Assembly: GCA_009781085.1 (NCBI GenBank)
Contig: WQYV01000005.1
Coordinates: 1 to 55,663, forward strand
DNA length: 55,663 bases
Origin: Betaproteobacteria bacterium
GTDB taxonomy: Bacteria; Pseudomonadota; Gammaproteobacteria; Burkholderiales; Rhodocyclaceae
Direction: 5' to 3'
Part shown: positions 2,125 to 22,767 of the stretch, one piece after another
Layout: each line of letters begins with the position of its first letter
Numbering within the stretch: position 1 is the stretch's first letter
The notes under the pieces: generated by a model
Databases searched by the model: none
What the model saw: only the letters and a program-made list of their open reading frames with translations
Told to the model about the DNA's origin: nothing
Program-made: the position numbers and the translations under genes

Positions 2125-3222
2125 ATGGACAATGGCAGGTTGGAACCGATGATGGTGGGACATTTCCACATCGACTATTCCGGCTTTACGCTGGATGTCG
2201 ATCTGCCCATGCCAGGAAAGGGCATCACGGCGCTATTCGGTCCGTCTGGTTCCGGCAAAACTACTATATTACGCTGCATGGCCGGGTTGGAACGCTCGCC
2301 GAAAGGTTTCCTATCCGTCGCAGGCGAGGTATGGCAGGACGAACAGCACGGAATTTTCCTGCCTACCCACAAACGCCCGCTGGGGCTAATTTTTCAGGAA
2401 GCAAGCCTTTTCCCGCACTTGTCCGTCCTAGGGAACCTCCAGTACGGAATGAAGCGGGCAGGCAATACAAAGGGCGAAGGGTTCGACACCATGCTCGACC
2501 TGCTTGGCATCCGCCCCCTTCTCAAACGCACCCCCGACAGCCTTTCCGGTGGCGAGCGGCAGCGGGTCACCATTGCACGTGCGCTTCTTACCCGCCCCCG
2601 GCTGCTGCTGATGGATGAGCCGCTTTCCGCACTCGACAGGAAGCGCAAGCTGGAAATCCTGCCTTACCTTGAAAGGTTGCATGACGAGCTTTCCATCCCT
2701 GTGCTTTACGTCAGCCACTCCCTGGATGAAGTGGCACGCCTTGCCGACCATCTCGTGCTCATCGAAAACGGGCGTGTCACGGAAAATGGTCCACTCGCAG
2801 ACATCTTGGCACGGCCTGACCTGGGTGCTGCCTTTGGCGGGGAAACGGGTGCAGTACTAGAAACGATGGTGGCTGCACACGAAGCGGACGGCCTCACCCG
2901 GCTGGAATTTCCCGGTGGCAAGCTCTACATCGCCGGAAACGCGCACGCGCCCGGCAGCCGCCTGCGCTGCCGCATCCACGCCAGCGATGTCAGCCTCGCC
3001 TTAAGCGCATACAAGGACACCAGCATCCTGAACACCCTGCCCGCCATCATTGCTGACGTCGCCGAAACCGACACGCCTGGCCATGTGCTCGTACAACTGC
3101 AACTCATGGGCGGGGAATCCTTGTTGCTGGCACGCATCACTGAACGGTCCCGGCAAACACTGGGCATCACGTCCGGACTCCCCGTCGTCGCACAGGTGAA
3201 ATCTGTAGCGATCCTTCGTTGA
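2125..3222 (+). CDS. modC: Molybdate ABC transporter ATP-binding protein
   Basis: ATPase of a molybdate importer. The 365-residue product has Walker A GPSGSGKTT, a Q-loop (FQEASLFPH), the signature LSGGERQR, Walker B LLLMDEP and a switch histidine in YVSHSLDE, followed by a C-terminal TOBE/Mop-like domain from about residue 290. The length is normal for ModC. The start is uncertain: ATG at 2125 lies about 19 bases after the purine-rich AAGGGAGA; ATG at 2152 (MVGHFHIDYSG) is also possible and closer to the family N-terminus. No modA or modB is adjacent, so substrate binding and membrane subunits must come from elsewhere. A link to the neighbouring cofactor and Nap genes is inferred from context. 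A related sulfate- or thiosulfate-type ATPase is less likely. Confidence 0.88.
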   Translation: MDNGRLEPMMVGHFHIDYSGFTLDVDLPMPGKGITALFGPSGSGKTTILRCMAGLERSPKGFLSVAGEVWQDEQHGIFLPTHKRPLGLIFQEASLFPHLSVLGNLQYGMKRAGNTKGEGFDTMLDLLGIRPLLKRTPDSLSGGERQRVTIARALLTRPRLLLMDEPLSALDRKRKLEILPYLERLHDELSIPVLYVSHSLDEVARLADHLVLIENGRVTENGPLADILARPDLGAAFGGETGAVLETMVAAHEADGLTRLEFPGGKLYIAGNAHAPGSRLRCRIHASDVSLALSAYKDTSILNTLPAIIADVAETDTPGHVLVQLQLMGGESLLLARITERSRQTLGITSGLPVVAQVKSVAILR

Positions 3223-3506: not shown

Positions 3507-5777
3507 ATGGAAGATAAACGCAGCATATTTTTCAGATATCGCAAGATCATCTTTGCAGTGGTTCTTTTCATGGTGGCAGATGCGGTCGTTATCGGCATCA
3601 ATTTCTACAATACTTTCAAAGCCGATGAATCCGCTGTGTCGATCAACCTGTCCGGACGGCAGAGGATGATGTCGCAACGCATGACTAAGGCACTCCTGAC
3701 AATGGATCGTAGCCTGGAAGCGGGAGATGAGGAAGGACTCAAAATCAGCCTGAAGGAATTGACACTGACTGCCAGGCGTTTCGACAGGACCCTGATGGGT
3801 TTCCGCGACGGTGCCATGGTAACCGGCGGCGACGACAACCCCACGTACCTGACCCAAGTTGAAACAGATGAATCCCGGAAGTTCGTAGCGGATGCCTACG
3901 AGATCTGGAACCCTTATATGAAACTGCTGAAGCCGTTAATGAACAGCGACAGGGAGTCCTTTCTGGACGAAGCGTTCAAAAAGAAGCTAGGCGACCCAAA
4001 GAAGTTAGAAGAAGTGAAAAACAAATTTAAGGCAGAAGAGGTTTTTACGGACGAAGAATTCAAAGCGAAGCTAGAACACGTAGATAACTTCCCTGAGAAG
4101 TTCCAGGCGGAACTCAAGGCGGCAGTCGCTTTCGCGCTTGAAAAAAACCCGACTCACGGAGAGCCGCAGAACAACCGGGCAATCCTGAAACTCATGAATG
4201 CCTTGACCACCGATCTGGAACACGTCGCTAGCAATCGAGCCGCCACTTTGCGGATCGTGCTGATCGTCGGCATCCTTTTTGCGCTCGTTAACTTTGGCTA
4301 TACTGTCGTCATTTCAATCCGGGATTTGATAAGGAGTGACCAGGAACTTGCCGAGGCTCGCAACGAGACGGTCGAAATTCTTACGACTGTGCGTGAAGGG
4401 CTGTTCTTGCTGGACAAGGACAAAAAAATTGGAACCCAGTTCTCAAAGTCCCTGCCCGACATCCTGAAAAGGGACATCGTCCCAGGTGCAGATTTCCTGC
4501 CCCACCTCGAAGCCATCGCCCCCAGGAACATTTACGAGACCGCCATGGACTACATCGAACTGCTTCTCGGCGATCGGGTAAAGGAATCCCTGGTAACGAG
4601 CCTCAACCCCCTCACGAACGTGCCCGTCCTTGTCACCGACCCACGTAACAACACCCAGACCCGTTACCTGTCCTTCTTCTTCAACAGGGTTGTCACAGAA
4701 GGCCGTATCTCGCACCTGTTAGTTACGGTACAGGATGTCACCGACAGGGTCGTGCTCACACAACAGGTCGAGCAAGCGAAGAACCAAGCAAAAGTCGAGG
4801 TCGAAACCTTGTTGCGGCTGGCGAGCAGCGATTTTGACGCACTGCAGCATCTCGTTAGCAGTGTTGGAGAGTCGCTATCGCAAATCAACGAAAAAATGAG
4901 CGCCCCCAATGATGACGCACGTGACCGCCTGCATACACTGAACTACGTCATGCGTATCGTGCACGGTATCAAGGGCGAAGCAGCGGTGCTTGGCATCGAC
5001 GTGTTGGAAAGCTACGCGCACGAATGCGAAAAGGAAATGGTGGCCATGCGCGAAGAGGATTCGTTCAGCGGTAACCAGATGCTGCGTGTGGCCGTGCTGC
5101 TGGAAGGCTTTTACCAGCGCCATTCCTCTCTCGCCCAGATCGTCTCCCGCCTTGGCAATGCGCTAGGCAAGACACAGACGACAGGCGGCACAGCCGAATG
5201 GGTTCCCCAGAAGCATCCATTCGAGGACCACATCACTGCGCTTGCGCACCGAATTGCCACAGACCATGGGAAACAGGTCGAAGTTTCCTGCCAATTTGAA
5301 AGGTTTTTCTCCTTGCCCAAAACCACGGAGAAAGAGTTGCAGGACATTTCCATCCAACTCGTGCGCAACGCCCTGACGCACGGCATCGAAGCACCTGACA
5401 AGCGGGTCGAGCGCAACAAGCCACGAACCGGCGCGCTGAGCCTCTGGTGCGAATATCTGGGTCACGGCCAATACACTTTCACAGTACGGGATGACGGATG
5501 CGGTATTGTCCCCGAGCGGCTGCGCGAGCATTTCGTGAAAAAACAATTTATGAGTGTCGAGGAGGCGAGTGCCTTGAGCGACCACGAGATAGCCAACCGC
5601 CTTTTCCAGCCTGGCGTCTCGACCGCAGAGATAGCCGACCAGGATTCTGGGCACGGCATCGGGTTGGATGCGGTATTAGAAAAAGTAAAGGAGATGGGTG
5701 GGCACATGCTGGTCAAGAGCCGTCCGGATCAGTTTACAGAGTTCAACATTCAGTTCAGCACGGTACAGGTTCATTGA
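3507..5777 (+). CDS. CheA-like sensor histidine kinase with PilJ/NarX-type N-terminal sensor, PAS, Hpt and ATPase domains
   Basis: Membrane kinase of 756 residues. A first membrane helix (about 13-33) is followed by a motif NLSGRQRMMSQRM (about 47-59), which matches the PilJ N-terminal domain and resembles the nitrate-binding P-box of NarX/NarQ; a periplasmic segment and a second helix (about 249-271) follow. Then come a PAS-like domain (about 290-415), an Hpt domain with the likely phospho-histidine in IVHGIKGE (His about 486), and a CheA-type ATPase domain with N-box LVRNALTHG and G-boxes DDGCGI and GHGIGL. No CheW-like domain is present. ATG 3507 is chosen over GTG 3495 because AAGTGGGG gives the better spacing to it. 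It forms an operon with a REC protein and a CheX-like protein, directly ahead of nap, so nitrate or nitrite is a plausible ligand; that is inference. Confidence 0.85.
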   Translation: MEDKRSIFFRYRKIIFAVVLFMVADAVVIGINFYNTFKADESAVSINLSGRQRMMSQRMTKALLTMDRSLEAGDEEGLKISLKELTLTARRFDRTLMGFRDGAMVTGGDDNPTYLTQVETDESRKFVADAYEIWNPYMKLLKPLMNSDRESFLDEAFKKKLGDPKKLEEVKNKFKAEEVFTDEEFKAKLEHVDNFPEKFQAELKAAVAFALEKNPTHGEPQNNRAILKLMNALTTDLEHVASNRAATLRIVLIVGILFALVNFGYTVVISIRDLIRSDQELAEARNETVEILTTVREGLFLLDKDKKIGTQFSKSLPDILKRDIVPGADFLPHLEAIAPRNIYETAMDYIELLLGDRVKESLVTSLNPLTNVPVLVTDPRNNTQTRYLSFFFNRVVTEGRISHLLVTVQDVTDRVVLTQQVEQAKNQAKVEVETLLRLASSDFDALQHLVSSVGESLSQINEKMSAPNDDARDRLHTLNYVMRIVHGIKGEAAVLGIDVLESYAHECEKEMVAMREEDSFSGNQMLRVAVLLEGFYQRHSSLAQIVSRLGNALGKTQTTGGTAEWVPQKHPFEDHITALAHRIATDHGKQVEVSCQFERFFSLPKTTEKELQDISIQLVRNALTHGIEAPDKRVERNKPRTGALSLWCEYLGHGQYTFTVRDDGCGIVPERLREHFVKKQFMSVEEASALSDHEIANRLFQPGVSTAEIADQDSGHGIGLDAVLEKVKEMGGHMLVKSRPDQFTEFNIQFSTVQVH

Positions 5778-5787
5778 GGCACCAGAG

Positions 5788-6156
5788 ATGAAACTCCTGA
5801 TCGTCGACGACTCCGCTCTCATTAGAAGCCGCGTTGCCCGCATCCTGAACGACCCGAGGCTTAAATCAGTCCAGCTTTTGGGCATGGCCAAGAACGGCAA
5901 GGAAGCCATTATGCTTTTCTTGCAACACATGCCCGATCTTGTAACGATGGATATCACCATGCCGGAAATGGATGGTATAGATTGCACTGAAAAGATGATC
6001 GAAATCCATCCTGACTGCAACATCCTTGTCATTTCCGCGTTGAGCGATAAAGCCACGGCTCTGAAAGCGTTGAAAAAAGGTGCCCGCGGATTTCTTTACA
6101 AACCATTTTCCGATGAAGACCTGATCGCGGCTTTTTTGGAGCTTACCAGTCCATGA
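5788..6156 (+). CDS. Single-domain response regulator, CheY-like
   Basis: Stand-alone receiver domain of 122 residues that presumably takes phosphate from the upstream Hpt/ATPase kinase. The acidic pair is in LIVDDSA (Asp7, Asp8), the phospho-acceptor is Asp55 in VTMDITMPEMDG, and the conserved Ser and Lys are in VISALSD and LYKPF. There is no DNA-binding or enzymatic output domain, so output must be by protein interaction. It starts 10 bases after the kinase stop, and its own stop overlaps the next start (ATGA). The MxxMDG helix and GARGFLYKP end are typical of CheY-type proteins. Its target, flagellar motor or something else, cannot be read from the sequence. Confidence 0.92.
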   Translation: MKLLIVDDSALIRSRVARILNDPRLKSVQLLGMAKNGKEAIMLFLQHMPDLVTMDITMPEMDGIDCTEKMIEIHPDCNILVISALSDKATALKALKKGARGFLYKPFSDEDLIAAFLELTSP

Positions 6157-6626
6157 ACGGCATCAACGAAAGAGACATCCATATCTTTGTAGACGCGGTC
6201 AGCAACTTTTTCTTCCATGTCACCGAGGAAAAAGTGGAGATAAAAACCGCGTACCTGCTGGAAAACGATGTCCCGTCCGCTACATACGACCTGACCAGCT
6301 ACATCACGCTGTCCGGGAATTTCACTGGGCGCATCTATTTCTCCGCACCACGCAGCATGCTGACCCATCTCCTTCTCATCATGGGTGAACAGGTTCGGGA
6401 CAACGATCGCCTGCTTGACACAGTCGGGGAAATCGCCAATACGATTTCCGGCAACGCACGCAAACACTTTGGCGAAACAATGGAAATCTCAGTGCCAATC
6501 TCGCAGGAAACGGAACCTGATTGGTTGAAAACCGTTGTTTCGCCCCATTCCTACATCATCCTCGTAAAATGGAAACAATATCGTGCATCTGTCGTCGTGG
6601 ATATCCAACGCGCCGGACAGACATGA
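6153..6626 (+). CDS. CheX-like phosphatase domain protein
   Basis: Protein of 157 residues of the CheC/CheX/FliY family, which in chemotaxis dephosphorylates CheY-P. The diagnostic E-x2-N phosphatase motif is present in VGEIANTISGN (Glu93, Asn96). The N-terminal half (HIFVDAVSNFF, YLLENDVPSA, LSGNFTGRIYFSA) fits CheX. It overlaps the receiver gene by 4 bases (ATGA), so the two are probably translationally coupled and act as substrate and phosphatase. This completes a three-gene kinase, REC and phosphatase relay. No chemoreceptor, CheW or methylation gene lies nearby. Confidence 0.85.
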   Translation: MNGINERDIHIFVDAVSNFFFHVTEEKVEIKTAYLLENDVPSATYDLTSYITLSGNFTGRIYFSAPRSMLTHLLLIMGEQVRDNDRLLDTVGEIANTISGNARKHFGETMEISVPISQETEPDWLKTVVSPHSYIILVKWKQYRASVVVDIQRAGQT

Positions 6627-6710: not shown

Positions 6711-6751
6711 TTAACTTAGATCAAGGTTAGCTTTATTCCACGGGCTAGTAT
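6711..6751 (+). promoter_or_regulatory. FNR-type anaerobic promoter for the nap operon
   Basis: TTAAC-TTAG-ATCAA at 6711-6724 matches the FNR/Anr consensus TTGAT-N4-ATCAA with a perfect right half and 3 of 5 in the left. A -10 candidate, TAGTAT, lies at 6746-6751. With a start near 6758 the FNR site would be centred at about -41, the class II activator position. The napF ribosome site follows at 6783. The geometry supports oxygen-repressed, FNR-activated nap expression. Confidence 0.65.
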
Positions 6752-6800
6752 GGTGTCTGGGGTAATAGCTCCGTAGAATAACAGGAGGGGGTTTGTGGAT

Positions 6801-7364
6801 ATGGGTCGCCGCGCTTTCCTGCGCGGCCAGCGTTTGCGCGGGACAGTAGCGGTTCCGTGCCGTCCCCCTTGGGCGGTGGACGAAGCGCTTTTCACGCGTA
6901 TCTGCACCCGGTGCGGCGCTTGCATAGCGGCGTGCCCCACAGGGTTGCTTGCACAAGGTGCGGGAGGATTCCCAGAGGCCGACTTCCGGCGGGCATACTG
7001 TACGTTCTGCACGGATTGCGCTTGTGCCTGCACAAAAAACGCCCAGGAAAGCGTGCCCCACCAACCACCAGCCCTGACTTTTTCCCCCGACCTCCCGCCC
7101 TGGGAACTCCGTGCTGCGATTGGCACGGCCTGCCTGCCCCGCCAAAACGTGTTGTGCCGTTCCTGTGAAGACCATTGCGAGGAAGGTGCCATCCGTTTCA
7201 CCTTGCGCCAAGGTAGCCCCGCACAACCGGAGATTATGGAGTCGTGCTGTATCGGTTGCGGCGAGTGCGTAGCATCTTGCCCAGTTCGCGCCATTTCCAT
7301 GCAAAAAAACCCATCACCCAACCTGCACCCAATCCCCTTCCAAGAAAAAAGAACCACGCAATGA
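6801..7364 (+). CDS. napF: Ferredoxin-type protein NapF
   Basis: Iron-sulfur protein of the Nap system, thought to help cofactor insertion into NapA in the cytoplasm. The 187-residue product begins MGRRAFLRG, like NapF (RRxLLRG), and has several four-cysteine [4Fe-4S] motifs: CTRCGACIAACP near residue 36, CTFCTDCACAC near 70, a group around CRSCEDHC near 115, and CIGCGECVASCP near 150. AGGAGGGGG ends about 9 bases before ATG 6801, so that start is preferred over GTG 6795. It is the first gene after the FNR promoter, and its stop overlaps the napD start. Confidence 0.93.
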   Translation: MGRRAFLRGQRLRGTVAVPCRPPWAVDEALFTRICTRCGACIAACPTGLLAQGAGGFPEADFRRAYCTFCTDCACACTKNAQESVPHQPPALTFSPDLPPWELRAAIGTACLPRQNVLCRSCEDHCEEGAIRFTLRQGSPAQPEIMESCCIGCGECVASCPVRAISMQKNPSPNLHPIPFQEKRTTQ

Positions 7365-7612
7365 AAATCGTCAGCCTCGTCCTGAAGTTTATGCCAATGA
7401 ATGCCGAAGCCATAAAATCTGCCGTTGGAACCATACCTGGGGCCAGCGTAGCAGTCGACAGTGGCGACGGGCGCATGATCGTCCTATTGGAAGACGGTTC
7501 GGACTATGCCGTCTCCGATTCCATCCTCCAAGTCCACCATATCCCACAAGTGATGTCCGTAACCCTTTCCTACGAATATTCGGATGAAGCACACGCTCTC
7601 GAGGAGAACTGA
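7361..7612 (+). CDS. napD: NapA twin-arginine chaperone NapD
   Basis: Small cytosolic chaperone that binds the NapA Tat signal peptide and holds back export until the molybdenum cofactor is loaded. The 83-residue product begins [12 protein letters not shown] and has the family pattern [19 protein letters not shown] and a late [15 protein letters not shown]. The length is normal. ATG 7361 overlaps the napF stop (ATGA), and the stop is one base before the napA start, so the three are probably coupled. Confidence 0.93.
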
Positions 7613-7613
7613 A

Positions 7614-10154
7614 ATGACCAACCGTCGCGACTTCCTGAAAACCCAAGCCGTTGCCGCCGCCGCTGCAGCAGCCGGGATGACACTGCCCACCGGCGCTATC
7701 GCCCAGAGCGCTGACAAGGACATCCGCTGGGACAAGATTCCCTGCCGTTTCTGCGGTACAGGCTGCTCGGTGCTAGCGGGCGTACAGGGTGGCAGGCTGG
7801 TTGCCACGCAGGGTGACCCGGATTCAAGGGTGAATCGCGGGTTAAACTGCATTAAGGGATATTTCCTGTCCAAGATCATGTACGGCAAAGACAGGCTCAC
7901 TCAGCCCCTGCTACGGAAAAAAGGTGGCAAATACGACAAAAACGGTGAATTCACGCCCGTTTCGTGGAAAGAAGCCTTTGATATCATGGAAGAAAAATGG
8001 AAAGCGGCTCTGAAGGCAACCGGCCCGGCTTCCATCGCAATGTTCGGCTCGGGGCAATGGACGATCTGGGAAGGCTATGCCGCCGCAAAATTGTGGAAAG
8101 CGGGCTTCCGCTCCAACAACCTTGACCCGAACGCCCGTCACTGCATGGCGTCCGCTGTGGTCGGTTTCATGCGTACCTTCAACATGGATGAGCCGATGGG
8201 CTGTTACGATGACATCGAAAACGCCGATGCCTTCGTGTTGTGGGGCTCCAACATGGCGGAAATGCACCCGGTTCTGTGGTCACGCGTCACCGACCGCCGC
8301 CTGACCCACAAAGACTGCGAAGTCCACGTGCTTTCGACCTACGAACACCGTTCATATGAATTGGCCGACAACGCGATGACATTCCATCCGCAATCCGACC
8401 TAGCTATCCTGAACTACGTCGCCAACTACATCATTCAAAACAACAAGATCGATAAAACCTTCATCGACAAGTGCGTCAACTTCAAGAAGGGCGTCACCGA
8501 CATCGGCTATGGCCTGCGTCCAGGCCACGATCTCGAGAAAAACGCCACCGCCAACGGTTATCCAGATCCGAATAACGACAATAAACCCAAGGGCGACACG
8601 GGTGCGTCTGAACCCATGACTTTTGCGGATTATTCCAAATTCGTTTCCGAGTACACGCTGGAAAAAACCGTCGAACTCTCCGGTGTGCCCGCCAACCGGC
8701 TCAAGAAACTGGCTGAATTGTTTGCCGACCCAGCCAAAAAAGTGGTTTCTTTCTGGACAATGGGCGTCAACCAGCATGCGCGCGGTACCTGGGTCAACAA
8801 CCTGATCTACAACATCCACCTGCTCACCGGCAAGATTTCCAAGCCAGGCAGTGGCCCCTTCTCCCTGACTGGGCAACCTTCCGCTTGCGGCACGGCACGG
8901 GAAGTCGGCACTTTTGCACACCGGCTGCCTGCCGACATGGTAGTCGTCAACCCGGAACACCGGAAAGTAGCAGAAGCACAGTGGAAGCTGCCAGAAGGGA
9001 CGATTCCTGACAAAATCGGCTTGCACGCCGTAGCGCAAAGCCGTGCCTTGAAAGACGGCAAACTTAAGTGTTACTGGACGAGTACGACCAACAACATGCA
9101 GGCTGGGCCGAATATCAATGTCGAAGTCCTTCCTGGTTGGCGTAATCCCGACGCTTTTGTAGTGGTTTCCGATGCCTATCCTACGGTGTCCGCGCAAGCA
9201 GCCGACTTGATCCTTCCCTCTGCCATGTGGGCGGAAAAGGAAGGCGCTTTCGGCAATGCCGAACGGCGTACTCAATTCTGGCGGCAGCAGGTCAAGGCAC
9301 CAGGCGAGGCTCATTCCGACCTCTGGCAATACCTGGAATTCTCCAAGCGTTTCAAGGTGGAAGATGTCTGGCCAGCCGAGTTGGTCAACAAAAAGCCGGA
9401 ATACAAGGGTAAGACCCTGTATGACGTCCTCTATGCCAACGGCGCTGTCAACAAGTTCCCCAAGACCGATGTCGCTGCCGTCAACGCGCATGCCATCCAG
9501 GGCTACGCCAACGACGAATCCGAATACTTCGGTTTCTATGTGCAGAAGGGCCTGTTTGAAGAATACGCTGCCTTTGGTCGGGGCCATGGCCATGACTTGG
9601 CTGAGTTTGGTGAGTATCACAAGGCACGGGGCCTGCGCTGGCCTGTCGTGGATAACAAGGAAACCCTGTGGCGCTACAACGAAAAGTATGACCCCTATGT
9701 GAAGAAGGGCGAAGGTATCAGGTTCTACGGACAAAAAGACGGCAAAGCGATCATTTTCGCCCTGCCCTATCAGCCGCCTGCTGAAATGCCGGACAAGGAA
9801 TACGATCTCTGGATGTGTACAGGCCGCGTGCTGGAACACTGGCACACTGGCTCCATGACCCGCCGCGTGGAAGAGTTGCACCGCGCCGTACCGGAAGCGG
9901 TCGTTTTCATGCACCCGGATGATGCCAAGGATCGCAAACTGCAACGGGGTTCCAAGGTAAAAGTCGTTTCCCGCCGGGGTGAAATCATCCTGCAAGTCGA
10001 AACGAGAGGACGTAACAAACCGCCTCGCGGCTTGGTGTTCGTACCCTTCTTCGATGAGCAGAAACTCGTCAACAAGCTCGTCTTGGATGCCACCTGTCCG
10101 CTTTCCAAAGAAACGGACTTCAAGAAGACCGCAGTCAAGGTAGTGACTGCCTGA
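7614..10154 (+). CDS. napA: Periplasmic nitrate reductase catalytic subunit
   Basis: Molybdoenzyme that reduces nitrate to nitrite in the periplasm, using bis-MGD and one [4Fe-4S] cluster. The 846-residue precursor has a twin-arginine signal (NRRDFLK, an alanine-rich core, likely cut near AIAQ-S at about 31). Cluster cysteines are Cys44, Cys47, Cys51 and Cys79 (CRFCGTGC and CIKG), and the molybdenum ligand is Cys177 in [11 protein letters not shown]-terminal MGD-binding blocks include [16 protein letters not shown]. The length is close to the ~830 usual for NapA. GAGGAG precedes ATG 7614 at good spacing. The Cys ligand and the close fit to NapA separate it from formate dehydrogenases (Sec/Cys) and NarG (Asp). 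Antisense frames across it are shadows. Confidence 0.98.
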
Positions 10155-10186
10155 TTGTTCTTTGCTGAAAGCAAAAGCGCCAGACC

Positions 10187-11080
10187 ATGAATGCGGAAAA
10201 ACCCGCCGAACGCACCCGCTCCCCGGAGAAAACCACGGTTTCTCCGGGACGGAGGAAATTCCTCTCCGGAATGGCTGGGGCGGCGGGCGGCGGCTGCCTC
10301 ATGGCAATGGGCGTCGGTATCTATTCCCGCCAGGCCAGCGCGCTCCCCGCGCTGGCCCTGCGGCCTCCCGGCGCATTGCCGGAACCGGAATTCCTTGCGG
10401 CCTGCACGCGCTGCGGCCTATGTGTCCGGGACTGCCCTCCCGGCATCCTAAAGCTCGCCGCGCCGGGCAACCTCATACCGACCGGTACGCCGTACTTCAC
10501 GGCTCGCACTGGCCCATGCGTGATGTGCGAGAACATTCCCTGCATCAAAAATTGCCCCACGGGTGCACTCGACCCGAAACTGACCGACATCAACGACGCA
10601 CGCATGGGGCTGGCCGTCCTCATCGACCAGGAAACCTGTATTGCCTTCCTCGGGCTGCGCTGCGAAGCCTGCTATAACATCTGCCCAGTTGCCATCAAGA
10701 CCGACAATGACATCACGCACAGAGCCATCTCGCTGGAGAAACGCCACAACCCCCGATCCGACCGCCACGCCATGCTCCTGCCAACGGTGCATTCGGAATA
10801 CTGCACCGGATGCGGTCTATGTGAAAAAGCCTGCATCCTGAAAGAGTCGGCTATTAGGGTGTTGCCGCCCAAGTTGGCTCAGGGCAAGGGTGACGGGCAT
10901 TACCTCAAGGGATGGGAAGAACGGGAAAAACATGGCAGGTCACTGATCGGCGACCAACTGGAACTTCCTGTACGCGGGCTGGAAAACAAACCCCTCGGTG
11001 ATGTCCGCGTTTATGACGAACCGCCCTCCAATACCGACCCTGCCGACACCCACGGATCTGATCCGGAGGACAAGCAATGA
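10187..11080 (+). CDS. napG: MauM/NapG-type ferredoxin, quinol dehydrogenase subunit
   Basis: Periplasmic iron-sulfur protein that, with membrane NapH, passes quinol electrons toward NapB/NapA. The 297-residue product has a Tat-like signal (GRRKFLSGMAGAAGGG, about residues 21-36) and four cysteine-rich cluster motifs: CTRCGLCVRDCPPG, CVMCENIPCIKNCP, the CEACYNICPV region and CTGCGLCEKACI. The length fits NapG. The N-terminus is about 20 residues longer than many homologues before the RR pair, so the start could be later. The last codon and stop overlap the napH start (ATGA). Confidence 0.93.
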   Translation: MNAEKPAERTRSPEKTTVSPGRRKFLSGMAGAAGGGCLMAMGVGIYSRQASALPALALRPPGALPEPEFLAACTRCGLCVRDCPPGILKLAAPGNLIPTGTPYFTARTGPCVMCENIPCIKNCPTGALDPKLTDINDARMGLAVLIDQETCIAFLGLRCEACYNICPVAIKTDNDITHRAISLEKRHNPRSDRHAMLLPTVHSEYCTGCGLCEKACILKESAIRVLPPKLAQGKGDGHYLKGWEEREKHGRSLIGDQLELPVRGLENKPLGDVRVYDEPPSNTDPADTHGSDPEDKQ

Positions 11081-11949
11081 GCACCCGGGATCCGAACAAA
11101 CGTCTCGGACAGGATGCCATCGCGAACAAGGGGTGGCTTGTGGCCAATAAATGGCTGCTGCTGCGCCGCGTCAGCCAGTTGGGCATTTTGGCCCTATTTA
11201 TGGTTGGTTCATGGTTTGGCGTCTGGATCATCAAAGGCAACCTAACCTCCAGCCTCGTGCTGGGCGTTGTGCCCCTGACCGATCCCTACGCGTTCCTGCA
11301 GATGCTAGCAACGGGGTTTCTGCCCGCCAAAACCGCCATCATCGGTGCGCTCATTGTGGCTCTCTTTTATTTGCTCATCGGTGGGCGCGTGTTTTGTTCC
11401 TGGGTCTGTCCAGTCAACATGATTACCGATGCCGCCGCGTGGACGCGCCGACGCTTCAATATCAAATCCAACCACGCGCCCTCCGCCAACACCCGCTACT
11501 GGTTCATGGTCGGCACGTTCGTCGCTTCCGCACTCACCGGAACCTTGGCCATGGAATGGGTCAACCCGGTATCAATCGCCCATCGTGGACTGTTTTTCGG
11601 TATGGGCGCAGGGCTGTGGTTTCTCGCTGCACTGTTTATTTATGATTCGTTCGTCGCCACCCGTGGCTGGTGCGGCCACCTTTGCCCGATGGGTGCGTTC
11701 TACAGCCTACTCGGCAAAGCTGCCCTGTTGCGCGTCGCTGCTCCCCGGCGGGACGCCTGTGACGATTGCATGGACTGTTTCGGCATCTGCCCAGAACCCC
11801 AGGTGATCCGTCCAGCGCTCAAAAAAGCAGGGCAAGACAGCCCGGTCATTCTCGATTCCCGTTGTACAACCTGTGGGCGCTGCATAGATGTCTGCGGTAA
11901 ACAGGTTTTCAGATTAACCCATCGCTTCGACCAGAGGAGTTCATCATGA
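11077..11949 (+). CDS. napH: Quinol dehydrogenase membrane component NapH
   Basis: Polytopic inner-membrane protein of 290 residues with iron-sulfur clusters that oxidises quinol together with NapG. About four membrane helices are visible (near 34-52, 80-99, 141-160 and 170-190). Two CxxxCP motifs typical of NapH/NosR face the cytoplasm (CSWVCPVN and CGHLCPMGAF), followed by two C-terminal ferredoxin-like motifs (CDDCMDCFGICPEP and CTTCGRCIDVC). It overlaps napG upstream and napB downstream by 4 bases each. Having both NapGH and NapC implies two quinol entry routes to NapAB, as in several epsilon-, gamma- and betaproteobacteria. Confidence 0.94.
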   Translation: MSTRDPNKRLGQDAIANKGWLVANKWLLLRRVSQLGILALFMVGSWFGVWIIKGNLTSSLVLGVVPLTDPYAFLQMLATGFLPAKTAIIGALIVALFYLLIGGRVFCSWVCPVNMITDAAAWTRRRFNIKSNHAPSANTRYWFMVGTFVASALTGTLAMEWVNPVSIAHRGLFFGMGAGLWFLAALFIYDSFVATRGWCGHLCPMGAFYSLLGKAALLRVAAPRRDACDDCMDCFGICPEPQVIRPALKKAGQDSPVILDSRCTTCGRCIDVCGKQVFRLTHRFDQRSSS

Positions 11950-12401
11950 AAAAACGCTTCTTTGCCATTGTTCCCGCCACCGTGTTGGCAACAGGTTTAA
12001 TGTTGCTCACCGGCGTTTCCCAGGCCTCGGACGACGGCGGCCTTGCCACGTTGCGTGGTGCACCTGTTTCAGCATCGGAAAAGTCCCCCACCGGCGATGG
12101 GCTCAAGAAGGCAATCGAAACTGAACCGGTAGAGCGTAATTATCTAGATCAGCCGCCAGTAATTTCGCATGCGATAGATGACTATCGTATTACCAAGGAC
12201 GCCAACAAGTGCTTGGATTGCCACTCTGTGGAAAACTACAAGAAAGAAAAAGCCACCAGGGTTTCAAAAACCCACTTTGAAGCGTATGACGGAAAAACCT
12301 TAGCGAACGTCTCGTCCCGGCGTCAATTCTGTACGCAATGCCACATTCCCCAGACTGACGCTAAACCGCTGGTTCCCAATACTTTCCAACATGCGAAGTA
12401 A
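11946..12401 (+). CDS. napB: Di-haem cytochrome c, nitrate reductase electron-transfer subunit NapB
   Basis: Small periplasmic c-type cytochrome that donates electrons to NapA. The 151-residue precursor has a Sec signal (MKKRFFAIVPATVLATG, cut near SQA-SDD at about 27) and two haem motifs, CLDCH and CTQCH. The flanking pattern LRGAPVSASE and QPPVISHAIDDYRI matches NapB, including a candidate distal histidine ligand in ISHAI. The length is typical. ATG 11946 overlaps the napH stop. Confidence 0.95.
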   Translation: MKKRFFAIVPATVLATGLMLLTGVSQASDDGGLATLRGAPVSASEKSPTGDGLKKAIETEPVERNYLDQPPVISHAIDDYRITKDANKCLDCHSVENYKKEKATRVSKTHFEAYDGKTLANVSSRRQFCTQCHIPQTDAKPLVPNTFQHAK

Positions 12402-12447
12402 CATCTGCTGACCAAAACTAACTACTACATAACTGTGAGGAGCATCA

Positions 12448-13146
12448 ATGGGTACCGACCCCTCTGTCAAAGTTTCCGCTTCCGACCGACCAGGAAAACG
12501 CCGGGGGGAGCGGAAACGCATTATTTCGATTTCCGTCATGGTGACTTTCGTCCTCGGCATCGTGTTCGCGGGCGTTTTCAACGTGGCGCTGGATTGGACG
12601 AATCAAGAAGAGTTCTGCCTCTTCTGTCACGAGATGAAGGACAACGTATACCGGGAATATCAAACGACCATCCATTACACCAACCGTACTGGTGTGCGGG
12701 CAGTTTGTGCGGACTGCCATGTACCAAGGGAGTTTGTCCCCAAACTCATTCGTAAGGTCAAGGCCGCCAAAGAAGTTTGGCACAAGATATTGGGTACCAT
12801 CGACACGCCTGAGAAATTTGCGGAATACCGCCCGGTAATAGCGCAAAACGAGTGGAAGCGCATGAAAGACAACAACTCGCAGGAATGCCGTAATTGTCAC
12901 GACCCCAAATTCTTCGACTTCAGCCAGCAAGGTTACCGTTCCGTCAATCAGCACCAGGTCGGGCTGTTGGCGAAAGGCCAGGCTTGCATCGATTGCCACA
13001 AGGGTGTTGCGCATCGCCTACCGAGACTCGATCAGGGGGTCAACTTAGCAGACCCGACGGGTATCTCTCTGGAGATTTTCCGGCCGCCTGTTCCTGCGAA
13101 AGAAACTCCTCTTACGGGGGAAACCACCACCGAAAGCGCAAAATAA
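12448..13146 (+). CDS. napC: Tetrahaem cytochrome c quinol dehydrogenase NapC
   Basis: Membrane-anchored NapC/NirT-family cytochrome that moves electrons from quinol to NapB. The 232-residue product has a basic N-terminus, one uncleaved membrane helix (about 25-46), and four CxxCH haem motifs: CLFCHEM, CADCH, CRNCH and CIDCH. Separation of the motifs (two close pairs around a long linker) is the NapC pattern and differs from the NrfH-like protein at 18155. A GTGAGGAGC ribosome site precedes ATG 12448. It is the last nap gene, and moaA follows after 35 bases, probably on the same transcript. Confidence 0.95.
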   Translation: MGTDPSVKVSASDRPGKRRGERKRIISISVMVTFVLGIVFAGVFNVALDWTNQEEFCLFCHEMKDNVYREYQTTIHYTNRTGVRAVCADCHVPREFVPKLIRKVKAAKEVWHKILGTIDTPEKFAEYRPVIAQNEWKRMKDNNSQECRNCHDPKFFDFSQQGYRSVNQHQVGLLAKGQACIDCHKGVAHRLPRLDQGVNLADPTGISLEIFRPPVPAKETPLTGETTTESAK

Positions 13147-18154: not shown

Positions 18155-18760
18155 ATGTCCGAACAATCGTCCGGTGGTTTCTTCAAAGGTATTATCAATG
18201 CCTTACCAAACGGGCTCATCGTCCCACTGTTTGTGTTTGGCGGAGTTGCGTTGGGGTTTTTCTTTTTAAACATAGGCGCGTCACGGCTATGGACGTACCT
18301 TGGGAATGACGCCGCTACTTGTAACAACTGCCACATCATGTCTGCTGCCTACAAGTCATGGGAAAGGGACGCACACTCAAAGTGGACTACGTGCAAGGAT
18401 TGCCATACCCCACAAAACAGCAAATTGGCCGAGTTGCTGTTTGATGCGCAGGACGGGATCCACCATGCCTCTGTGCTCCTCAGGAATAAACAGCCGGATG
18501 CCCCGCGCCCCCTTATGCCTGCCACAAAAGTCATCCAACAAAACTGTGTCCGCTGCCATACCCAGCTCACCACGGAATTCGTGAAAGCGGGCAAAGCGAC
18601 ATCCGAGGATATCGAACATGGCAATCAGCGGGTTTGTTGGGATTGCCACAGGCATGTGCCGCATACCAAAATCAGTGGGTTAAATTCAGCCCCGAACGCC
18701 ATCGTACCCCATCCGCCTGCCACAATTGCGCCAAATTGGCTCAAAAACTTATTGCAGTAA
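18155..18760 (+). CDS. nrfH: Cytochrome c nitrite reductase small subunit NrfH (NapC/NirT family)
   Basis: Membrane quinol dehydrogenase that docks NrfA to the periplasmic face and feeds it electrons. The 201-residue product has one N-terminal membrane helix (about 21-41) and four haem motifs: CNNCH followed by IM (the methionine after the first haem motif is a NrfH trait), CKDCH, CVRCH and CWDCH. Its short length and immediate position before nrfA separate it from napC. The start has AAAGGGAGA at good spacing. Confidence 0.95.
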   Translation: MSEQSSGGFFKGIINALPNGLIVPLFVFGGVALGFFFLNIGASRLWTYLGNDAATCNNCHIMSAAYKSWERDAHSKWTTCKDCHTPQNSKLAELLFDAQDGIHHASVLLRNKQPDAPRPLMPATKVIQQNCVRCHTQLTTEFVKAGKATSEDIEHGNQRVCWDCHRHVPHTKISGLNSAPNAIVPHPPATIAPNWLKNLLQ

Positions 18761-18815
18761 AAACTAACTAACGCGTTAAAACGGTAGAACCCTTCGACTC
18801 AATGGGAGCATTGTC

Positions 18816-20555
18816 ATGAGTAATCTCGCCGAGACCATCAAGCGCAACCCAGCAGTTGGTTGGCTTATTCTTCTCCTTGTAATGGCCATCGTTATCTTAG
18901 CTGCGCTCATCTTCTCTGGCATCACGGAGAAGAGCGCGCAAACCGCTTCCCTCTTCAATAATGTAAGGAAGCCAATCGAAAGTATCGCCCCCTCTTTCAC
19001 CAATGCCCAAGCTCCGTCCAAAGAATACGAGAGGAAGAAGGTGGAGATCGTCAAAACCACCCCTGCTATCAATGCACATAACGACGAGTGGGGAGTCAAT
19101 TTCCCACGGGAATACGACACCTGGAAAAAAACACGGGAAACCGACTTCAAGAGCAAGCATCTTGGCAATGCGCCGGACGACGTGCTCAAAGATCGTCCCA
19201 ATATGGTCGTGCTCTGGGCCGGATACGCCTTCTCCCGTGATTACTCAGCTCCGCGTGGTCACTGGTACACCCTCTACGATATGCGCGCAACGTTGCGTGT
19301 AGGTGCTCCTGGTGTCGAAAAAACCAATGAACTACAGCCTGGAACCTGCTGGACCTGTAAGAGCCCGGACGTACCGCGCATCATGCAGGAAAAAACTCCT
19401 GGCGTGTATTACAGTGCCCATTGGAGCGAGTGGGGACCCGAGATTGTGAACCCCTTGGGTTGCGCGGACTGCCACGACCCCAAGACGATGAACCTCAACA
19501 TCTCTCGTCCAGCACTGGCCGAAGCTTTCAGGCGGGCGCCTGAGTATAATAAGGCCATGGAAGAAGATAATCCGAACCTCGTCCAGTTCCTCAAGAGGAT
19601 CAGGGAAGCTGGTAACGATGTCAACAAGGCCACCCCAAACGACAAACGCACCCTTGTCTGTGCCCAGTGCCACGTCGAATACTATTTTGGTGAAGGTAAG
19701 GGCAAATACCTGACCTTCCCGTGGGACAGGGGACTTACCGTCGAAGATGCGGAAAGGTACTATGACAATCCTATCTTCACCTCTGTCACTCCCAGTAGCA
19801 AAGGCGAGCTAGTGGACAACCAGCCGTTCTCCGACTGGATACATGGAATGAGCAAAGCGCCGATGCTGAAGGCTCAGCATCCGGACTTTGAGATTTTCAT
19901 GTTGGGTACACACGGCAAGCGTGGTGTTTCGTGCGCCGACTGCCATTTGCCCTACAAGGCTGAGGGTGGCATCAAGTACACTGACCACCAGATCATGAGC
20001 CCGCTCAAGAACATCGCTGGAACCTGCCAAAACTGCCACCGCGACAGTGAAGAAAGGCTCAGAAGCTATGTCTATGACAATCAGGACAAGGTTCTTGAGA
20101 TCCGTGACCGCGTCGAGAAAGAGCTTGCCAAAGCACACATTATGACGAAAGCGCTGCTGGATAGCGGGAAAGTCACGGTAGAGAGTGACGAAATCAAGCC
20201 TGTGCATAAGTTGCTCCGCGAAGCCAGCTGGCGTTGGGACTATGGTGTTGCCTCTCACGGTGGTTCCTTCCACGCACCGGTGGAAATAGCGCGTATCCTC
20301 TCGCACGCTCTCGACAAGAGCCTGCTCGCGCAGATTGAAGTGCAAAAGCTGCTTACCAAGCACGATGTCGCGGTAACGTTCCCTGACCTCGATCATTGGA
20401 CGAAGGAAGACGCGCAGAAGTACGTCGGTCTCAACATGGAAAAACTCAATGCCGAAAAACAAGAGTTCCTGAAGACGGTCGTTCCAGGTTGGATCAAAGA
20501 CGCCGCGGACAAAGGCAAGTTGACAGACCCTGAGTTGGTGAATCAATACAAGTGA
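18816..20555 (+). CDS. nrfA: Ammonia-forming pentahaem cytochrome c nitrite reductase
   Basis: Reduces nitrite by six electrons to ammonium in the periplasm. The 579-residue product has an N-terminal hydrophobic helix (about 15-34) that may be an uncleaved anchor, the active-site haem motif CWTCK with lysine ligand Lys182, and four CxxCH motifs (CADCH, CAQCH, CADCH, CQNCH). It is longer than the ~480 residues of the E. coli enzyme but close to epsilon- and deltaproteobacterial NrfA that pair with NrfH. KGELVDNQPFSDWIHGMSKAPMLKAQHPDFE spans residues about 329-359 and holds the family calcium/active-site Gln-Pro-His elements. It lies 55 bases after nrfH and is followed by a strong terminator. 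Confidence 0.97.
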   Translation: MSNLAETIKRNPAVGWLILLLVMAIVILAALIFSGITEKSAQTASLFNNVRKPIESIAPSFTNAQAPSKEYERKKVEIVKTTPAINAHNDEWGVNFPREYDTWKKTRETDFKSKHLGNAPDDVLKDRPNMVVLWAGYAFSRDYSAPRGHWYTLYDMRATLRVGAPGVEKTNELQPGTCWTCKSPDVPRIMQEKTPGVYYSAHWSEWGPEIVNPLGCADCHDPKTMNLNISRPALAEAFRRAPEYNKAMEEDNPNLVQFLKRIREAGNDVNKATPNDKRTLVCAQCHVEYYFGEGKGKYLTFPWDRGLTVEDAERYYDNPIFTSVTPSSKGELVDNQPFSDWIHGMSKAPMLKAQHPDFEIFMLGTHGKRGVSCADCHLPYKAEGGIKYTDHQIMSPLKNIAGTCQNCHRDSEERLRSYVYDNQDKVLEIRDRVEKELAKAHIMTKALLDSGKVTVESDEIKPVHKLLREASWRWDYGVASHGGSFHAPVEIARILSHALDKSLLAQIEVQKLLTKHDVAVTFPDLDHWTKEDAQKYVGLNMEKLNAEKQEFLKTVVPGWIKDAADKGKLTDPELVNQYK

Positions 20556-20609
20556 CAGTATCCGTTGCGCCTAAGCGCGGCGGATTACACTTCCTTGATA
20601 AACGGGCAT

Positions 20610-20640
20610 GAATACCCGCCGAAAGGCGGGTATTCTTTTA
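20610..20640 (+). terminator. Rho-independent terminator after nrfA
   Basis: An 11-base perfect stem, GAATACCCGCC and GGCGGGTATTC, around a GAAA tetraloop is followed by TTTTA. It lies 54 bases after nrfA, before resB. It should end most nrfHA transcripts and set resB-resC apart as a lower-expressed or read-through unit. Confidence 0.9.
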
Positions 20641-20653
20641 TCCCTATAAAAAC

Positions 20654-21967
20654 ATGTCTCTCCCCCTCTCCTTGTTCTCGCACGCTCATCCCATGACAAG
20701 AAAACTCTGGCAATACCCATGGGGGTATCCGGAAGCTGCCCTGTTCGTTGCGGGTATTGCCTTAACCGGTTTCCTGCTGCAACTGACCGTCGGCCATTTC
20801 GATTTCGCTCTCCTGCACCACCCGGCAAATTTCATCGCCCTCGCGGTTCTGGTCGGATTAATCACCCTTGGTATCCGCTTTCAAAGTAATCTGCTTGTGC
20901 GCTGGATTGCGGGCATTCCGCTGGCCGTCACGCTCATCGTGGCACTCCTCCTTTTTGGTTTCTACATGGAACTGACCCCGCAGCTCCCCCGGCTTCCACC
21001 GCAAACACCTGATATCGTTTCCCGCCTTGGATTCAGGATGGTCACCTCCTCGTGGCCCTTTGTGCTCCTTTACGGCATGACGCTCATCTCTTTGGGTATT
21101 ACCACTTTCAAGCGGTTTCTGCGCTTTTCCCGACGCGACATCACCTTTCTCTGCAACCACCTGGGATTATGGATACTCCTCGTCTCGGCTGGATTTGGCG
21201 CAGCAGATATGGTGCGTGTCGTCATGCACGTCAACGTCGGAGAGACCGAGTGGCGCGTCTTCAACAAGGACGGCGAAGCCCTGGAACTTCCCATCGCCAT
21301 TACCCTGAAAAAATTTACGATGGAAGAATACCCACCAAATTTGACAATCATTGACCGTCAGGCTGTTCCTCAGACCCAACCTGGAGGCAAGGATGAGGGC
21401 AAAAACGAACCCAAACCCAAACAGAAATTCTTCCAGATCGATCCCAAACGTCCTGACGGGCAACTCGGCGACTGGGCTATCACGCTCGATAAATATTTGC
21501 ACACCGCCGTGCGCATTGGAGGCGAATATCGCGCCAACCCGATGCCCGAATCCACCCCTGCCGCAAAAATCACCGCTCGAAACCTCATCACTGGAGAAAC
21601 CAAAACAGGCTGGGTTTCCTCCGGTGGCAATATTCCTGAATTCTTTTCGTCTCTTCCCCTGGACGACGGCCATATCCTCACCATGGCGCAGCCGGAACCC
21701 AAACGCTATGCTTCGGACGTCACTATCCTCCCGAAAGGCGGCACGAGTATCAACACCACCCTGGAAGTCAACAAACCCGTTTCGGTTGGCAATTGGATGA
21801 TCTACCAGTATGACTATGACACCACCCTTGGAAAAATGTCGAACTGGAGCGGAATGGAACTAGTCTTTGACCCCTGGTTGCGACCCGCCCAAATCGGCAT
21901 GGGGATTATGGCAATCGGGGCATTCCTGCTGGTATGGAATGGTACGGGCAGGCGGAGGAGCATCTGA
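20654..21967 (+). CDS. System II cytochrome c biogenesis protein ResB (CcsB)
   Basis: Membrane component of a haem-attachment machine. The 437-residue product has three N-terminal helices (about 30-48, 58-75 and 85-105), a fourth near 135-152, another near 170-190, a large periplasmic domain (about 190-400) and a last helix near 410-430. A charged insert rich in Lys/Glu/Pro sits near residue 250. It overlaps resC by one base (TGATG). Position after nrfHA and the presence of a CxxCK haem site in NrfA suggest a role like the fused NrfI protein of Wolinella, split here into two genes; that is inference. A general cytochrome c role is the alternative. ATG 20693 is a possible later start. Confidence 0.88.
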   Translation: MSLPLSLFSHAHPMTRKLWQYPWGYPEAALFVAGIALTGFLLQLTVGHFDFALLHHPANFIALAVLVGLITLGIRFQSNLLVRWIAGIPLAVTLIVALLLFGFYMELTPQLPRLPPQTPDIVSRLGFRMVTSSWPFVLLYGMTLISLGITTFKRFLRFSRRDITFLCNHLGLWILLVSAGFGAADMVRVVMHVNVGETEWRVFNKDGEALELPIAITLKKFTMEEYPPNLTIIDRQAVPQTQPGGKDEGKNEPKPKQKFFQIDPKRPDGQLGDWAITLDKYLHTAVRIGGEYRANPMPESTPAAKITARNLITGETKTGWVSSGGNIPEFFSSLPLDDGHILTMAQPEPKRYASDVTILPKGGTSINTTLEVNKPVSVGNWMIYQYDYDTTLGKMSNWSGMELVFDPWLRPAQIGMGIMAIGAFLLVWNGTGRRRSI

Positions 21968-22767
21968 TGAGCTTGAGTTGGAACGAATTCCCCTTCATTG
22001 CCCTTCCGGCGACCCTATGTTGGCTTACAGCCGGCCTGCTCGCCTGCCGCCGTGCCCGCTCGCCCCAATCTGTATACGCGGTTGACGCGCTGTCACTCGT
22101 CGGAATCATTCTCTTCACTACCTTCATCGCAGCGTTTTGGAACGCCCTTTCGCGCCCGCCACTACGCACGATGGGCGAAACCCGGCTCTGGTACGCCCTC
22201 TTCCTGTTCCTCGCTGGATACATCACCTACCGCCGCTGGAACTATCCGTGGTTACTGCTCCTGTCGGCTATTGCGGCAGCTGCATTTACCGGCGTCAACT
22301 TACTGAAGCCGGAAATCCATTCCATCGCGATGAAACCTGCCCTGCAAAGCTTCCTTTTCATCCCCCACGTCATCATCTACATCATCGCCTACGCCCTCTT
22401 TGGTGTCGCCACGCTTGCCGCCTGCGTACTACTCGTCCGACGTAGGCAAAATGGCAACAACCACGAACTGTTATCCTTTATCGACAACCTTATCCACATC
22501 GGCTTTGGTTTTCTCGCGTTTGGGCTGTTGCTCGGCGCAGTCTGGGCCAAGGAAGCGTGGGGCCATTATTGGGCGTGGGACCCCAAAGAGACGATCGCCT
22601 TCATTACCGGCGCGGCCTACCTCGTCTACATTCACCTGCGGCATCAAGGCCGGGAAGACAACACCATCATTTGGACGCTCCTCGTTGCCTTCCTCCTGTT
22701 GTTGCTGGGTTGGTTCGGTACGACCCTCTTCGCTGACGCCGACCGCAGCGTGCACCTCTATTACTGA
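21967..22767 (+). CDS. System II haem lyase ResC (CcsA), WWD-domain protein
   Basis: Partner of ResB; exports and presents haem for attachment. The 266-residue product is polytopic (about eight helices) and has the WWD signature WGHYWAWDPKE near residue 200, with candidate haem-ligand histidines in LFIPHVIIY and LIHIGFG. Its start overlaps the resB stop. The late FADADRSVHLYY is a usual CcsA ending. Together the pair should mature NrfA, and perhaps NapB, NapC and NrfH. Confidence 0.92.
   Translation: MSLSWNEFPFIALPATLCWLTAGLLACRRARSPQSVYAVDALSLVGIILFTTFIAAFWNALSRPPLRTMGETRLWYALFLFLAGYITYRRWNYPWLLLLSAIAAAAFTGVNLLKPEIHSIAMKPALQSFLFIPHVIIYIIAYALFGVATLAACVLLVRRRQNGNNHELLSFIDNLIHIGFGFLAFGLLLGAVWAKEAWGHYWAWDPKETIAFITGAAYLVYIHLRHQGREDNTIIWTLLVAFLLLLLGWFGTTLFADADRSVHLYY

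Follow-up and report, generated by a model that had tools for sequence, protein, structure and literature searches.

A membrane sensor kinase, a free CheY-like receiver and a CheX phosphatase are encoded side by side in the window (the whole 55,663-nucleotide stretch of DNA analysed), and the three genes are a conserved, co-inherited unit, beyond chance adjacency. Our reading is that the trio forms an autonomous chemosensory-type relay: one protein serves as both receptor and kinase, a small anion is the input, and the output is contact with a partner protein, probably not at the flagellar motor; we give this reading a probability of about 0.45. In such a relay, a periplasmic PilJ-type helical sensor, probably dimeric, would bind a small anion at its P-box, with the R53 residues of both chains at the dimer axis; in the window's clade the likeliest anion would be nitrate. 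The signal would then cross the second transmembrane helix (TM2) and run along the PAS-like domain and a helix until it reaches the CheA-type ATPase. This ATPase would phosphorylate His486 in Hpt, and from there the phosphate would pass to D55 of the receiver. The phosphorylated receiver would act by contact with a partner protein encoded elsewhere, and CheX would strip the phosphate and set the lifetime of the signal. CheW, an MCP array and adaptation enzymes would not be needed. If this is true, a chemotaxis phosphorelay needs no receptor arrays and can consist of three proteins with an exchangeable sensor, and the trio is a clear gene set for testing it.

Table 1. Features of the trio and its flanks (window positions)
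Feature	Position	Strand	Remarks
modC, molybdate transporter ATPase	2125..3222	+	upstream neighbour, above TIGR02142 cut-off; context, outside the unit
Membrane sensor kinase, 756 aa	3507..5777	+	ATG at 3507, stop ending at 5777; TM1, PilJ-type helical sensor, TM2, PAS-like, Hpt, CheA-type ATPase
P-box / N-box-like motif INLSGRQRMMSQ	3642..3677	+	residues 46-57 (I46 to Q57); G50 and R53 aligned to McpN G58 and R61
PAS-like domain	4398..4736	+	residues 298-410; predicted fold only in the window protein
Hpt domain	4839..5051	+	expected phospho-acceptor His486 (nt 4962-4964) in HGIKGE
CheA-type ATPase (P4)	5352..5756	+	N621, D662, glycines 715, 717, 719
Stand-alone CheY-like receiver, 122 aa	5788..6156	+	Response_reg, Pfam, E 9.5e-27; phospho-acceptor D55 (nt 5950-5952)
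CheX phosphatase family, 157 aa	6153..6626	+	PF13690, E 9.9e-16, above cut-off; ExxN at E93 (nt 6429-6431) and N96 (nt 6438-6440)
FNR-like site TTAACTTAGATCAA before napF	6711..6724	+	two mismatches; context
nap operon	6795..13146	+	downstream; context, outside the unit

Conservation of the three-gene unit

The receiver gene follows the kinase gene on the same strand in all 54 further kinase loci compared (32 genus labels), beginning 3-128 bp beyond the kinase match, and cheX follows in 53/54, being absent at L047. In the window, 10 bp separate kinase and receiver, and the receiver and cheX overlap by 4 bp. Not among the 54 are the window itself; L037, L049 and L131, which lie at contig ends; L004-L006 and L013-L015, which are truncated or belong to the same clade; L103 and L123, each of which has the trio; L109 and L110, treated as duplicates of L003 and L007 because their contigs are equally long; a second trio in L140; short loci repeating longer stretches; and L146 and L147, two second-tier kinases of 26-27% identity that have neither receiver nor CheX. 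Genus labels number 36 in total and stand for 32 genera, extra copies in three genera being labelled separately; seven loci were pooled with the window as one genus, which was checked for L003 and L007 only (via G862 and G811).

Clustering of the neighbouring genes revealed no family besides the trio that recurs at similar frequency. Two further large clusters, with 31 and 19 labels, contain nothing but opposite-strand frames, the majority of which overlie the trio, and are therefore taken as shadow frames; next in size, at 9 and 7 labels, come loose sets of GGDEF/EAL-like proteins and ABC ATPases at scattered distances. A search for plasmid copies gave no match at E<=1e-20. The receiver subfamily has 14 matches at E<=1.9e-43 among 321 genomes, all adjoining a kinase of the same family, and the next-best match lies at 8.5e-31; the open frames of the 14 matches span 121-186 aa, with no fusions seen. 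The kinase profile (alignment A3) also picks up true CheA at a cut-off of 1e-40; members counted at E<=1e-120 number 12/369 in the class draw and 27/150 in the family draw, including three that are broken or partial (G554, G866 and G895). In G811 a TAA lies inside the kinase match, and the ATG-started frame at the same locus (L007) is open.

Domain architecture and known systems

In the window kinase, PilJ (residues 34-108, E 7.7e-9), Hpt (445-515, E 8.7e-7) and HATPase_c (616-750, E 2.9e-13) all score above their Pfam cut-offs and are the only domains matched at E<=1, a search that detected no CheW, H-kinase_dim or PAS and no HAMP, GAF-like or DHp domain before the ATPase. Hpt and HATPase_c are found in 17/17 scanned homologues, and CheW and H-kinase_dim in 0/17 (Pfam, E<=0.01). 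The AlphaFold2 model (11 sequences, mean pLDDT 70, pTM 0.33) predicts a helical sensor, a helical Hpt and an ATPase, and at residues 298-410 its strands and helices follow the order of a PAS fold; PAS_4 is matched in 3/17 homologues. A PAS domain is thus supported by the predicted fold and weakly by sequence. Foldseek with this model ranked a WalK-YycH model first at a low TM-score (0.15/0.18), followed by CheA chains at ranks 2-31 and then by LOV-histidine kinases and phytochromes matched over a longer stretch. The sequence-only reading had proposed this layout (PilJ/NarX-type P-box, PAS, Hpt and CheA-type ATPase, no CheW domain, a receiver lacking an output domain and an ExxN-containing CheX), and its domain calls are confirmed, for PAS by fold only. 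It also knew of no named system so arranged; our targeted literature search found no description of the trio and no named system with its layout.

His486, N621, D662, G715, G717 and G719 are kept in 54/55 kinase rows, the other row, L145, being cut there. The receiver has the acidic pair, phospho-Asp, Ser/Thr and Lys (D7, D8, D55, S83 and K105, numbered from the ATG) in 55/55 rows and no output domain in the window, and CheX E93 and N96 are present in 54/54.

The trio can be compared with the CheA-CheY-CheX chemosensory pathways of the Thermotoga and Borrelia type. Common to both are Hpt plus a CheA-type ATPase, a single-domain receiver and a CheX with ExxN; the trio differs in its own membrane sensor, in that no P3 or P5/CheW was found, and in lacking genes for an MCP or for adaptation. 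The Pil-Chp system (PilJ, ChpA, PilG/PilH) likewise combines a PilJ-family sensor domain with an Hpt/CheA-type kinase feeding free receivers, whereas the trio has a single kinase bearing a single Hpt, lacks CheW and includes CheX. Elsewhere, the source genome encodes a separate PilJ protein adjoining CheW, plus a 1278-aa CheW-bearing frame.

In the survey by Berry et al. (PMC10782961), all CheA proteins have P1, P3, P4 and P5. Judged by that definition, the 17 homologues have P1 (Hpt) and P4 (ATPase), and no P3 (dimerisation) or P5 (CheW) was detected in them by Pfam. CheA also has no sensor domain of its own, whereas this kinase carries a PilJ sensor between two transmembrane helices. The NarX/NarQ nitrate kinases are described in PMC8199190 as having a periplasmic helical sensor between two transmembrane helices and a G-x-x-R P-box, and to that extent the window kinase is alike. 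It differs from them in the absence of HAMP, GAF and DHp by Pfam, in predicted phosphotransfer through Hpt, and in that the unit has no NarL/NarP-type regulator. McpN, the nitrate chemoreceptor of Pseudomonas aeruginosa, shares the PilJ domain, and its G58, R61 and M62 (PMC6381276) align with G50, R53 and M54; here the kinase replaces the MCP signalling domain.

The sensor and its candidate ligand

The nitrate-type P-box noted from the sequence alone is present, with its G-x-x-R at G50-R-Q-R53. Against the strict McpN N-box, [IVL][ND]xAGxQRML[ST]Q, the window copy fits 10/12 positions (A is replaced by S, and L by M), and McpN contact A59 corresponds to R51; the strict form is matched in full by 12/55 kinase-family rows. 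With a mean entropy of 1.55 bits, the P-box varies less than any other sensor stretch in the comparison (TM1 1.82, TM2 1.86, remaining helices 2.4-2.65 bits). Midpoint rooting of a tree built without the sensor leaves the GxQR form in both halves, at a weakly supported split (63/84). The sensor profile aligned with McpN-LBD around the nitrate-binding R61, as a weak match (E 0.067). A NarX search of the source genome returned one kinase, in which no P-box was found. Nitrate is a plausible ligand of the window sensor, and, if it is the ligand, the trio would contain a nitrate sensor working through protein contact rather than transcription.

A credible, if tentative, alternative is that conservation of the P-box reflects structural needs or a different ligand, and that the relay senses redox state, some other small molecule or a binding-protein partner instead of nitrate. 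Conservation at Q57 and K61 equals that at G50 and R53, so the P-box stretch may be retained for structural reasons. P. aeruginosa PilJ does not bind nitrate, according to PMC6381276. The motif is also changed or lost in some members: R53 is kept in 43/55 rows and G-x-x-R in 40/55, and the absence of R53 from 12/55 rows (2 of them gapped at the site) suggests that the relay also serves other signals. Two of the loci without R53 have solute-binding neighbours: L047 is preceded by a Peripla_BP_4 protein, and L046 is followed by a GlnH-like protein that scores under the NCBIfam cut-off. A sulfate-binding protein, above cut-off, follows the trio in all three g434 loci. On the other side, G50 and R53 are among the best-conserved sensor positions and match the nitrate contacts of McpN and NarX/NarQ (PMC6381276, PMC8199190), and no other P-box kinase was found in the source genome.

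The 150 family genomes do not support the idea that the kinase tracks nitrate reductases. Nap or Nar is present in 20/27 kinase carriers and 93/123 others (p=1), and NarG is rarer with the kinase (2/27 against 44/123, p=0.003), both uncorrected for relatedness.

Output and gene neighbourhood

In the PDB, the receiver matches CheY chains best, presumably those of Pyrococcus and Thermotoga, and it could be a second CheY acting on the flagellar motor in nitrate taxis without an MCP. The source genome has CheW genes, and Flagellin_N is matched in 9/9 clade genomes tested (weakly in G905). Outside the clade, however, 10/14 carriers tested have no flagellin match and 3/16 carriers have no CheW, with kinase and receiver retained, indicating that the target is not generally the flagellar motor and leaving motor control improbable. 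Type IV pilus-type ATPases occur in 16/16 carriers and are uninformative on the target, because the family is also matched in 14/14 control genomes. No fusions or conserved neighbours naming the receiver's target were found at the trio loci. In our view, a target in cell behaviour (type IV pili, c-di-GMP or an envelope function) is more likely than nap transcription or the flagellar motor. More broadly, the trio may represent a relay class undescribed in the literature searched: a one-protein sensor-CheA-type kinase with dedicated CheY and CheX, in many genera, including genomes that lack flagellin or CheW matches, with an ancestral small-oxyanion input through paired arginines (nitrate beside nap/mod, perhaps sulfate beside the sulfate-binding gene) and a non-flagellar output, for example pili or c-di-GMP. 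We consider this extension somewhat unlikely as a whole.

One option in the earlier proposal was that the trio is a nitrate sensor controlling the adjacent molybdenum and nap genes through protein contact. In its favour are the position between modC and nap, found in the window and close relatives, and the P-box in the trio kinase in a genome where no P-box NarX-type kinase was found. The downstream operon is indeed nap: napF, from 6795, is recognised by its sequence and Fer4 matches, NapA, NapG and NapH score above their NCBIfam cut-offs, and NapB and NapC have matches below theirs. However, nap adjoins the trio in only 7/12 genomes of the window's clade, and no nap or nar was found beside it outside the clade in the stretches examined (up to 19.8 kb, some ending at contig ends). 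A reading of its function from the position ahead of nap is not supported. L005 and L010 retain modC before the kinase and have other genes after cheX, and the L012 genome has the unit with an intact kinase P-box and no NapA match. Because the trio recurs in many bacteria, its place beside nap is a local arrangement and not a defining trait; on gene context across loci, nap control is rejected as its general function.

An FNR-type site before nap, in line with the FNR control also proposed, is supported. Taken alone the window copy is no better than chance, with 33 two-mismatch FNR-like sites observed in the window against 27.9 expected, but an FNR-type site occupies the same place in 7/7 aligned cheX-napF gaps and is perfect (TTGATATAAATCAA) only in L003. 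The site before napF points to separate control of nap; together with the gene context and a receiver that lacks an output domain, this makes control of the molybdenum and nap genes by the trio very improbable. Finally, a chance position beside nap of a worn-out remnant, for which a variable neighbourhood and nothing further speaks, can be virtually dismissed: the three frames are open, the catalytic residues are kept, and the kinase is 59-84% identical to those of 10 related loci.

Composition and inheritance of the three-gene unit

The observation of a three-gene unit was confirmed: three forward genes fill positions 3507-6626, and their Pfam domains bear out the layout of kinase, receiver and CheX without CheW that the sequence-only reading had described. 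The source genome, in which the window belongs to contig C5, is 2.65 Mb in size and estimated to be 98% complete. The predicted structure of the kinase (mean pLDDT 70, pTM 0.33) is usable at the domain level only; it contains a helical sensor flanked by long helices at both ends, strands and helices in PAS-type order at residues 298-410, His486 within a helical Hpt, and an ATPase. In a Foldseek search with this model, a WalK-YycH model ranked first with a low TM-score, and CheA chains occupied ranks 2-31. In the excerpted text of a survey (PMC10782961), every CheA surveyed has P1, P3, P4 and P5 and no sensor of its own, whereas the window kinase has a PilJ sensor and showed neither CheW nor a dimerisation domain in the Pfam scan; by that excerpt's definition it is not a CheA. 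That reading knew of no named system with this layout, and no description of the trio was found in the literature either, where the search covered open-licence papers only, so the absence is not proof.

Scanning named genomes brought up 13 related loci with 55-86% identity in the best segment, all of them from MAGs whose titles read Betaproteobacteria, Proteobacteria, Azoarcus or Zoogloeaceae and whose isolate codes resemble those of termite-gut series. Receiver and CheX were present in all 11 of these loci that include the kinase 3' end. Among 399 genomes from the window's order, 16 carried the kinase; with matches at E<=1e-120, it was found in 27/150 genomes of its family and 12/369 of its class (Gammaproteobacteria in GTDB). 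Among 54 further kinase loci (32 genus labels), the receiver always started 3-128 bp past the kinase match, and CheX came next in 53, the exception being L047. Only kinase, receiver and CheX recurred widely as gene families near the unit, once opposite-strand frames, most of which overlie the trio, were set aside. In 321 genomes, all strong receiver matches (14, in 11 genomes) adjoin such a kinase. The trio is a co-inherited unit.

Key residues are strongly conserved across the window and the 54 loci. In the kinase, His486, N621, D662 and the three glycines at 715, 717 and 719 are present in 54/55 rows, the remaining row (locus L145) being cut; the receiver acidic pair, D55, S83 and K105 in 55/55; and CheX E93 and N96 in 54/54. 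The receiver also carries a family signature, TMDxTMP plus SALxD, invariant or almost so in the 55 rows, and its position near the output face suggests a single kind of partner. The trio is best read as a conserved relay of receptor-kinase, CheY and CheX that would act on a protein target.

Positions of features in the window and in loci of other genomes
Feature	Position	Strand	Basis or remark
Kinase, 756 aa	window 3507-5777	+	PilJ, Hpt, HATPase_c over Pfam cut-offs
Receiver, 122 aa	window 5788-6156, 10 bp after kinase	+	Response_reg over Pfam cut-off
CheX, 157 aa	window 6153-6626, 4-bp overlap with receiver	+	CheX family over Pfam cut-off
modC	directly upstream of kinase
napF	first downstream, after cheX		recognised from sequence
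NapA, NapG, NapH	downstream		over NCBIfam cut-offs
NapB, NapC	downstream		clear matches, below NCBIfam cut-offs
NrfH, NrfA	farther downstream, within window 18155-22767		matches just below cut-off
CcsB	window 18155-22767, same region as nap		match below cut-off
Exosortase B (XrtB)	window 47255-48160		over its cut-off
Kinase and receiver, CheX absent	L047:246-3803		sensor without P-box; sugar-type periplasmic binding protein ends ~20 bp upstream of kinase frame
Tandem pair of kinase-receiver-CheX units	L140:5154-12711		extra CheX-like match in between
Second cheX 3' end, then napF and napA	L008:17684-21415		behind first nap genes
Ras-like small GTPase	L041:6360-6944		PF03029, PF00071; ends 35 bp before kinase match
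Sulfate-binding protein genes, g434 loci	L128:7095-8030, L129:11753-12688, L130:12193-13128		just 3' of cheX in 3/3 loci

The P-box and nitrate as a possible ligand

The excerpted text of PMC6381276 states that McpN binds nitrate on the dimer axis via R61, with contacts to G58, A59 and M62, that its N-box was put forward as a predictor, and that PilJ itself does not bind nitrate; G-x-x-R is common to NarX and NarQ (PMC8199190, in excerpt). The window kinase has the G-x-x-R core, as G50-R-Q-R53-M, but deviates from the strict N-box at two positions. A sensor profile searched against the PDB found McpN at E 0.067, second behind an unrelated protein, with the alignment around R61. Of the 55 rows, 43 retain R53, 40 have G-x-x-R and 12 match the strict N-box; the P-box is the least variable of the sensor stretches compared, but Q57 and K61 are conserved to the same degree as G50 and R53. 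On a midpoint-rooted tree of the output part of the kinase, the GxQR form lies on both sides of the root, a weakly supported split (63/84), and loss of R53 clusters in a few groups.

The G-x-x-R motif favours nitrate, as do two negative results in the window's genome: the NarX search found no NarX-like kinase with a P-box, and the other PilJ protein lacks the motif. That search (E<=1e-12) gave no match in 5/9 clade relatives; five genomes, the window's included, had one, and none of the frames read (L164, L166, L167) has a P-box. In the window genome's only such match, a kinase (L164, on G000:C53), the sensor contains the c-type heme motif ECLDCH. Against nitrate stand counts in 150 family genomes, whose statistics ignore kinship: Nap or Nar occurs in 20/27 genomes with the kinase vs 93/123 without (p 1), and NarG is rarer with it (2/27 vs 44/123, p 0.003); Nap alone occurs in 20/27 vs 69/123 (p 0.13). 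The genome of L012, which keeps the P-box, had no NapA match and also counts against nitrate, but it is a MAG, so this absence is unsure. The P-box members of the relay are probably anion-sensing.

Genomic neighbourhood and possible targets

With nap and NrfH/NrfA as neighbours, the unit sits within a region for nitrate reduction to ammonium, probably formed by nap together with 18155-22767; Mo-cofactor genes nearby were recognised from their sequences. The FNR-type site proposed before nap is present at the same place in 7/7 aligned cheX-napF gaps, perfect in L003 only, and an alignment of eight stretches 5' of the kinase showed no conserved block. Nap follows the unit in 7/12 clade genomes (the window, L003, L004, L007, L008, L009 and L013). 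L005 and L010 have other genes there, L011 has 519 bp without a napF match up to the contig end, and the contig of L006 ends directly after the unit. Outside the clade, nap/nar was near the unit in none of the stretches read, nar queries having been applied to only part of them; L133 has a molybdopterin oxidoreductase (30% identity) at ~7 kb. In the stretches read, the place beside nap was confined to part of the clade, and a nap-linked system is too narrow a reading; the place beside nap looks recent and local. The repeat in L008 has the appearance of a tandem duplication spanning the junction of cheX and nap. The surroundings of XrtB look like an exopolysaccharide gene region.

A flagellin match was present in 9/9 genomes tested within the clade and absent in 10/14 carriers tested outside it, and CheW was absent in 3/16 carriers tested; the unit is therefore independent of flagella and CheW. 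Some neighbours are hints to a target, not proof: EAL-like proteins, judged by eye, beside the unit in g4, a GGDEF-EAL protein ahead of it in L120, solute-binding proteins adjoining it in L046 and L047, the small GTPase of L041, and the sulfate-binding proteins of g434. The L041 genome had no CheW or flagellin matches. In the g434 loci, the P-box is altered to AGQHR or AGTHS.
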